DNA of 64,000 nt from Sphaerospermopsis aphanizomenoides BCCUSP55 (GTDB lineage Bacteria; Cyanobacteriota; Cyanobacteriia; Cyanobacteriales; Nostocaceae): the NCBI RefSeq assembly GCF_001586785.1, contig NZ_LUFH02000009.1:1-64000 (forward strand), read 5' to 3'. Below the pieces are notes generated by a model. The model was not told the origin of the DNA and ran no database searches. It saw only the letters and a program-made list of their open reading frames with translations. Both the position numbers and the translations under genes were made by a program. Within the stretch, counting starts at the first letter, position 1. Every line of letters starts with the position of its first letter. This document shows, piece by piece, positions 2 through 1,209 of this stretch.

Positions 2-613
2 CTAATTACATATAAAATAAATAAAATAATGAAAGGTGAATACTGTATTGATAACAGAGGAGAAAAAATTGTATTTAACCAGGAAACAGAGGAATATGTT
101 TATCTGTCTAATGCTTCATCAGGACAGCAAGAGTGTATAAGGATTTTACAAGATATTTTCCTTAACATACTTGACGATGTAAAAGTATTAAGAATCATAG
201 AAGAACCAGAAGCACATTTATTTCCTGTTGCCCAAAAACAACTGATTGAATTATTAGCTTTAATGGTGAATCACGATGAAGATAATCAACTGATTATTAC
301 TACCCATAGTCCTTACATACTCACAGTTTTTAATAATCTACTCTTTGCAAATAGAGTAGTGGAAAAAAATCCCGCAGCAGAAGCTGAAGTAGCACAAATA
401 ATTCCTAAAGACTCCTGGTTAAAAGCAAATGATTTTTCTGCTTACTCATTAGGTAATCAATCTATTTCTGAAAAAACAAATTATGGTGAATAAATTTTTA
501 ATACTGAAAAAGGTACTATTCAACAAAATTATTTGGATACTGTTTCCGAAATTTTTGGTGGTGATTTTCAGGCTTTGGACAGTATCCACGCTAGAACTTT
601 TAAAAGAAGATGA
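2..613 (+). pseudogene. 3' part of an AAA-type ATPase (OLD/AbiEii-like), interrupted by an in-frame TAA
   Basis: The frame is open to the left window edge, so the gene starts outside the window. What is visible is the C-terminal half of an ABC/SMC-like AAA ATPase: a Walker B stretch (LRIIEEPEAHLFP) and the downstream switch segment IITTHSPYIL. An in-frame TAA at 491-493 ends the first ORF. The same frame then continues with a family-like tail (IFNTEKGTIQ, then YLDTVSEIFGG and a basic end) to a TGA at 611-613. That TGA overlaps the ATG of the next gene (ATGA at 610-613), which is typical coupling and argues that the original gene ended at 613. It is probably a nonsense-mutated defence or stress ATPase. 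The family is well supported; the exact role is not known. Confidence 0.7.
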
Positions 614-1209
614 GCAAATTTGACGATATTAAGGAACTTCTATCAAACGTTTTTCCAAATTTTGCTGATTTTCTACAAATAGAGTTGAGAGAAGAATTTT
701 CAGTCACAGACTATAAAGGACAATCTTTTATCATTGCCAGTATTGACTTCGATGATAATACATTTATTATTAAATTTAAAGGTACTGAAACTATTGTAGA
801 AGGATTTGATGGCAATAAATTATTTACTGTCAGCAATGCTACGAGGGTTGGTTTTATTCCTATAGATGGTAAACAGGGACTTCTAGGATGTGGTGATTCT
901 CATGGCGAATTTGTACTTGGTGATGACAGTTATTCATGTTACGGAGAGTTCTAAGTAAGGGCAACCAGCGCAGAAGCAAGGGCTAGACATAGGTACAGAT
1001 AAGAGGCTATTACGCAATAAACAAATACTATTAGTTTATTTAACTTTAAATTAAATAGAAACTACGCCGGGTTAATTCTAGAAGCTTATGTTTGCACTCC
1101 TAAATTTTACCCTAGATTTGATGCAAGTTGGCAAGCATTGGCGATAGAGTTTGCAGAAGAATATTATGGGATTGAACTTTTTGAAAGAAATTATAAAAAC
1201 TGTAAATAA
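610..1209 (+). pseudogene. Partner gene of the ATPase, broken by three in-frame TAA codons
   Basis: The first intact segment encodes 114 residues (610-954) of an unrecognised soluble protein. Beyond the TAA at 952-954 the same frame goes on without a shift. It has further TAA codons at 1000-1002 and 1018-1020, then a clearly protein-like stretch (LILEAYVCTPKFYPRFDASW, then an acidic/aromatic tail) up to a TAA at 1207-1209. The intact original would be about 199 residues. The start overlaps the ATPase stop, so the pair was an operon. ATPase-plus-small-partner pairs are often defence modules, but no catalytic motif is visible here. The 3' half has either decayed or is not translated. Confidence 0.6.

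Follow-up and report, generated by a model that had tools for sequence, protein, structure and literature searches.

Two adjacent genes at the start of the 64,000-nucleotide stretch of Sphaerospermopsis aphanizomenoides BCCUSP55 DNA analysed here (the window) continue in frame across four TAA codons, and the question they raise is whether the pair is broken in the organism or has been written wrongly in the assembly. The features on which the argument depends are the following, with 13 intact homologues of the pair and the nearest relative, genome G221, as references.

2-613, plus strand: 3' part of an AAA_15/AriA-like ATPase gene, corresponding to homologue codons 267-470 (Pfam AAA_15, E 2.5e-16), its 5' side cut by the contig start
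491-493, plus strand: in-frame TAA in the ATPase, where 13/13 intact homologues have Ser or Pro
610-613, plus strand: ATGA overlap of ATPase and partner, with ATG at 610 and TGA at 611-613
610-1209, plus strand: partner gene, putative PD-(D/E)XK-like nuclease, with three in-frame TAA and a terminal TAA at 1207-1209
851-1026, plus strand: patch of dense substitution, with 28 differences from G221, 27 of them within 890-1026, no indel, and all three partner stops
952-954, plus strand: first partner TAA, replacing the invariant lysine of the E-x-K motif
1000-1002, plus strand: second partner TAA, at a residue that varies among homologues
1018-1020, plus strand: third partner TAA, where 13/13 intact homologues have Leu

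A sequence-only reading of this locus had proposed a two-gene ATPase operon with one TAA in the ATPase (491) and three in its partner (952, 1000 and 1018), and much of it holds. Translation of the frames places the stops as claimed, frame 2-613 containing a single internal TAA, and intact pairs in relatives confirm both the operon and the homology of the downstream reading. The ATGA overlap recurs between the two genes of genome G027 (L008 2113-2116). The proposed absence of a frameshift over about 1.2 kb is supported by BLASTN, which aligns the window to G027 from 1 to 1205 at 81% identity, opening two gaps that leave no net frameshift, and by the codon alignment to the 13 intact homologues, which passes through and beyond every stop, 493 and 954 included, with sense codons at these sites in 13/13. 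A change of frame after 954 was rejected, the remaining two frames being riddled with stops. That all four stops are TAA is no surprise: TAA is the outcome of 51-53% of one-step nonsense changes in G221 genes, and the chance of four out of four, from the same genes, is 0.07-0.08. What cannot be kept is the claim that the genes are inactivated only by TAA codons, since ATPase codons 51-266 are missing from the assembly and nine further codons have a missense change at a residue shared by 13/13 homologues, two in the ATPase part and seven in the partner. Nor is pure nonsense decay the best description, given that the changes concentrate locally and a single patch takes in three of the four stops.

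The intact form of the pair is found in a minority of related genomes. A first DNA search of 60 relatives found it in G027 (ATPase of 470 aa, partner of 198 aa), and with the intact partner as query, matches were obtained in 18 of 388 genomes of the order, the organism's own included, 13 of which have both genes intact; the reference set thus leaves out the own copy, the broken copy of G014, the partial G274 and the distant G072 and G094. Named genomes, scanned in turn, yielded 18 loci from Nostocales, Pseudanabaena and Microcystis, several of them genomes repeated. A MoxR gene precedes the ATPase in G221, G027, G185, G399 and G380, as it does on contig C26 of the own genome, and follows the nuclease in G263, G316 and G289. 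In Sphaerospermopsis kisseleviana NIES-73 the MoxR match comes in three pieces that omit residues 69-141 (L058 3695-4534 / L077 1611-2450), so that this gene may be broken. In an uncultured Trichormus MAG (L093 76-279) the partner match starts only at residue 132, near the last insertion point of G014, possibly reflecting the same insertion. Directly 3' of the gene pair in the window lies a TumA/TumE-like toxin-antitoxin pair (1409-1714 and 1744-2127), present elsewhere only in G221 among the loci compared; TumE matches its Pfam family above the cut-off (E 2.2e-18) and its NCBIfam family below it (E 7.1e-17), and TumA matches below the NCBIfam cut-off (E 2.6e-11). Beyond these genes lie a dihaem cytochrome gene and then secA, the latter named from its translation.

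The ATPase is of the AAA_15/OLD-like kind. An intact homologue scores 101.5 bits against Pfam AAA_15 (cut-off 32.1), window 2-490 still passes the gathering score with 60.7 bits, and among PADLOC models the intact protein matches AriA best (E 1.2e-42), with further matches to PDC-M29A (E 4.4e-29), GajA and PtuA; the match to the OLD-family structure 6p74 is weak (E 3.7e-5). An intact copy of the partner matches no Pfam family at E up to 1, and its three PADLOC matches, AriB not among them, include a weak and partial one to PDC-M29B (E 4.1e-8, residues 95-189 only). The family nevertheless has the D...E-x-K arrangement of PD-(D/E)XK nucleases: D100, E113-x-K115 and Q136 (G221 numbering) are invariant in the 13 homologues, and the same four residues are equally invariant in 16 named homologues. 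In the predicted model of one named homologue (mean pLDDT 84.5), strands 99-104 and 108-114 carry the D and the E, with the K just after. Foldseek returned nothing at E <= 0.001 with this model and is uninformative, and VIA-align gave weak matches of Z 5.8 and below, in which Can2, EndoMS, EcoT38I, BsoBI and Card1 (Z 4.9-5.8), which we take to be PD-(D/E)XK enzymes, appear amid unrelated folds. A PD-(D/E)XK-like nuclease is thus suggested by the motif but not proven. In the window copy a stop stands at the E-x-K lysine and a glutamate in place of the aspartate.

Several known systems resemble the pair in part. The ATPase is of the type common to the OLD-family systems Gabija (GajA) and Septu (PtuA). 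These employ a TOPRIM or HNH nuclease, and the nuclease here would instead be a small PD-(D/E)XK-like protein encoded separately. PARIS (AriA and AriB) likewise joins an AAA_15 ATPase to a partner gene, and the ATPase here is AriA-like and carries the AAA_15/AAA_21 domain; AriB, however, is described in PMC9122126 as a DUF4435/TOPRIM protein, whereas the present partner has the D...E-x-K motif and no Pfam match. Lacking a DUF4435 partner, the pair is not PARIS. The nearest named pair, on a weak partner match, is PDC-M29, a candidate phage-defence pair of PADLOC whose A and B models are matched by both intact homologue proteins, although the partner is matched over only part of its length and the AriA model gives the ATPase a higher score; the name did not occur in the literature searched. 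The gene pair is probably a phage-defence module. When intact, its overlapping genes would encode an OLD/AriA-like ATPase and a PD-(D/E)XK-like nuclease, which might together form a switch: the nuclease, held by the ATPase, would be freed upon infection. As assembled, the copy here is a non-functional version of this conserved cyanobacterial module.

The distribution of the changes bears on how the copy came to be so. The window is syntenic with G221 from 16 to 2767 at 89%. In the partner, 47 differences from G221 were found, with 1 in 697-850, 28 in 851-1026 and 4 in 1027-1206; in 60-bp bins, 721-840 holds 1 and 0, 901-960 holds 13, 961-1020 holds 11, and each bin of 1021-1320 holds 1-2. The non-coding stretch 1321-1380 forms a smaller second patch, with 10 differences per 60 bp after near identity. 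Comparable divergence is seen elsewhere in the synteny with G221, for example at 2101-2220, the locus as a whole being a mosaic of near-identical and divergent stretches, and patch density by itself is therefore not the point. We counted as unique those changes at sites where all, or all but one, homologues agree (691 sites). This copy has 25; 16 of them fall in 890-1026, which contributes 78 sites, and the remaining 613 sites hold 9 (Fisher p 1.4e-10, with limits set post hoc). None of 20,000 random placements reached 16 unique changes in any 130 bp. Patch limits and tests were picked post hoc, and the homologue rows are related to each other. The other rows have between 1 and 31 unique changes, with a highest 100-bp bin of 7 (G289) as against 14 in this copy. 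Four unique changes form a separate group in the ATPase, at 485-578, and include the stop at 491. By hand count, changes in 890-1026 fall on the three codon positions as 8/11/8, compared with 23/12/51 in the ATPase part (p 0.008).

The spectrum of the changes is also unusual. The unique changes comprise 10 T>G, 5 T>C, 3 T>A, 2 A>G, 2 A>T, and one each of A>C, C>A and G>T. The contrast of 10 T>G with 1 A>C is strand-asymmetric (p 0.005, with the base make-up of the patch left out of account), and the A<->C and G<->T classes make up 13/25 unique changes against 99/410 in the background (p 0.004). A decayed copy of the same pair in G014 (L050 4137-9313, on a 5.35-Mb contig) served as a control. 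It is split by three inserted stretches, which presumably carry transposase-like ORFs, and has in-frame stops and indels, some of them not multiples of three in length. Across its five pieces the 75 unique changes show no significant unevenness (p 0.25). Relative to the G014 copy, the copy in the window has more T>G (10/25 versus 8/75, p 0.002), more A<->C and G<->T (13/25 versus 18/75, p 0.013) and fewer transitions (7/25 versus 40/75, p 0.04), and AT-to-GC changes account for 18/25 versus 37/75.

The first gene is incomplete, as window position 1 is base 1 of contig C254 (G000:C254:1) in a 6.1-Mb assembly of 254 contigs. Contig C26 has ATPase codons 1-50 at one of its ends, directly behind the MoxR-type gene; they include two unique changes, one of them a missense at an invariant residue. 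Codons 51-266, a stretch that is AT-rich in G221 (73%), were not found in the own genome by protein search (29/29 candidates scored), nor was the ATPase middle found with G221 DNA (best 40 of 71 candidates, in a search without positive control). Second copies were not found for the first 98 bases of C254 (best 40 of 65 candidates scored) or the last ~210 bases of C26 (best 40 of 438 candidates scored), the sole other match to the break ends among the candidates scored being one of 80% to an ATPase paralogue. A simple insertion sequence at the break was rejected: IS letters were seen at neither end, homology to the gene starts at base 1 of C26, and C254 matches G027 from its base 1-2 onwards. 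The first 15 bases of C254 fail to align to G221, and an IS with an adjacent deletion could still have produced the break. At least 15 of the 105 contig ends sampled sit at repeats, so many breaks in this assembly are other than coverage gaps. The starts of contigs C50 and C13 (L053 1-19, L054 1-19) share an exact 19-base overlap inside an ATPase paralogue; these contigs probably join, which hints that non-repeat breaks occur in this assembly. The other 7 terminal overlaps of at least 12 bases among the 105 sampled ends are simple tandem repeats (reversed control: 2).

A patch of this kind would be expected from any of three sources: recombination with a long-dead segment, a mutation burst, or wrong consensus letters. 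We favour the last, in which the patch, with its three stops, consists of miscalled bases in a poorly supported stretch of the assembly, although we give it only an even chance of being correct. It is preferred because the excess lies in the G<->T and A<->C classes, which PMC4719071 describes as the most common Illumina errors, and the pattern of changes leans towards assembly error; the break of the assembly inside the same gene, without a visible repeat, points the same way. Three of the four stops are part of the densely packed single-base changes within ~137 bp, as observed; that this patch is sequencing error and the break a coverage gap we infer, and the organism itself may then have intact or differently broken genes. 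Several observations hold our confidence at that level. The patch lies ~0.9 kb from the contig end, with DNA close to G221 on either side; A>G, outside the error classes, makes up 5/28 of its differences; some of its bases recur in other homologues, as judged by eye; the C26 side of the break has just two unique changes; and the share of error-class changes in the patch against G221, 11/28, is not significant (p 0.11). Assemblers, moreover, seldom retain 20% error.

Real damage of one kind or another is about as likely as sequencing error. Its more plausible form, which we rank second and consider possible rather than probable, is a module killed in a single step, the patch having come from recombination with a long-dead copy or from a local burst of mutation, with flanks left near-identical to the relative. 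The mosaic of the locus against G221 and the patch bases shared with other homologues fit this, as does loss of the module elsewhere: the insertions in G014, the fusion of a short ATPase remnant to the partner in Anabaena lutea, and G274/L091, where no ATPase match was found beside the partner. In the Anabaena lutea case (FACHB-196, L079 3914-4573), the N-terminal remnant ends at GEQASGKST and continues in frame into partner codon 8, a fusion that apparently arose by deletion. On the other hand, no donor was found in the own genome (best 40 of 65 candidates scored), the spectrum, rich in T>G, is unlike the decay of G014, and mutation bursts this dense are, to our knowledge, expected only from known mutator systems. 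In the search for an independent assembly, a 33-mer taken from the patch had no exact match in viral_contigs. The inverted repeats near the patch, considered for template switching, are short and imperfect. Gene conversion from a functional homologue is opposed by the changes at invariant residues. A diversity-generating retroelement was rejected on the grounds that adenine-only changes on one strand would be expected, and those against G221 in 851-1026 affect both A and T and a few G and C; a search for its template with 1-1300 returned only ATPase-paralogue matches in the own genome (best 40 of 65 candidates scored). Hypermutation by some other route, placing ~27 substitutions and no indel within ~137 bp over the nuclease active site and so disarming a harmful defence nuclease in one step, we consider very improbable.

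Slow decay of an unused pair, with point mutations yielding four TAA and zero indels by chance, is unlikely, more so than damage in one step. Four in-frame stops without a frameshift are what it offers, and nonsense inactivation is less unusual than the sequence-only reading supposed: in PMC3542288, the 227 pseudogenes of the bloom-forming relative Anabaena sp. 90 comprise 69.6% truncations, 10.6% frameshift and 10.1% nonsense cases, along with insertions. Unlike that set, the present pair has three of its four stops in one patch and an assembly broken inside the gene. Slow decay would be expected to act evenly and to add indels with time, whereas these changes are packed into one patch, free of indels, and odd and strand-asymmetric in spectrum; in addition, the ATPase part retains its third-position excess against G221 (51/86), and AT-to-GC changes dominate as they do not in G014. 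Least credible of all, to the point of being nearly negligible, is production of the proteins by readthrough or recoding of the stops. The frames are open between stops and the protein similarity continues, but TAA terminates 19/33 of the longest window ORFs (>=200 aa, overlaps removed), on which grounds recoding of TAA was rejected; the invariant E-x-K lysine is lost to the first nuclease stop, further invariant residues are altered, and 0/13 homologues have a stop at these sites.

Consensus error thus remains the favoured explanation, ahead of a real burst or imported dead segment and further ahead of slow nonsense decay. The locus carries the caution that in-frame stops near contig ends should be judged by the position of all changes, and not by the stops alone. 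The conserved module of an ATPase and a PD-(D/E)XK-like nuclease that has no Pfam match, found in Nostocales, often beside MoxR, and in Pseudanabaena and Microcystis, is a reasonable defence candidate.
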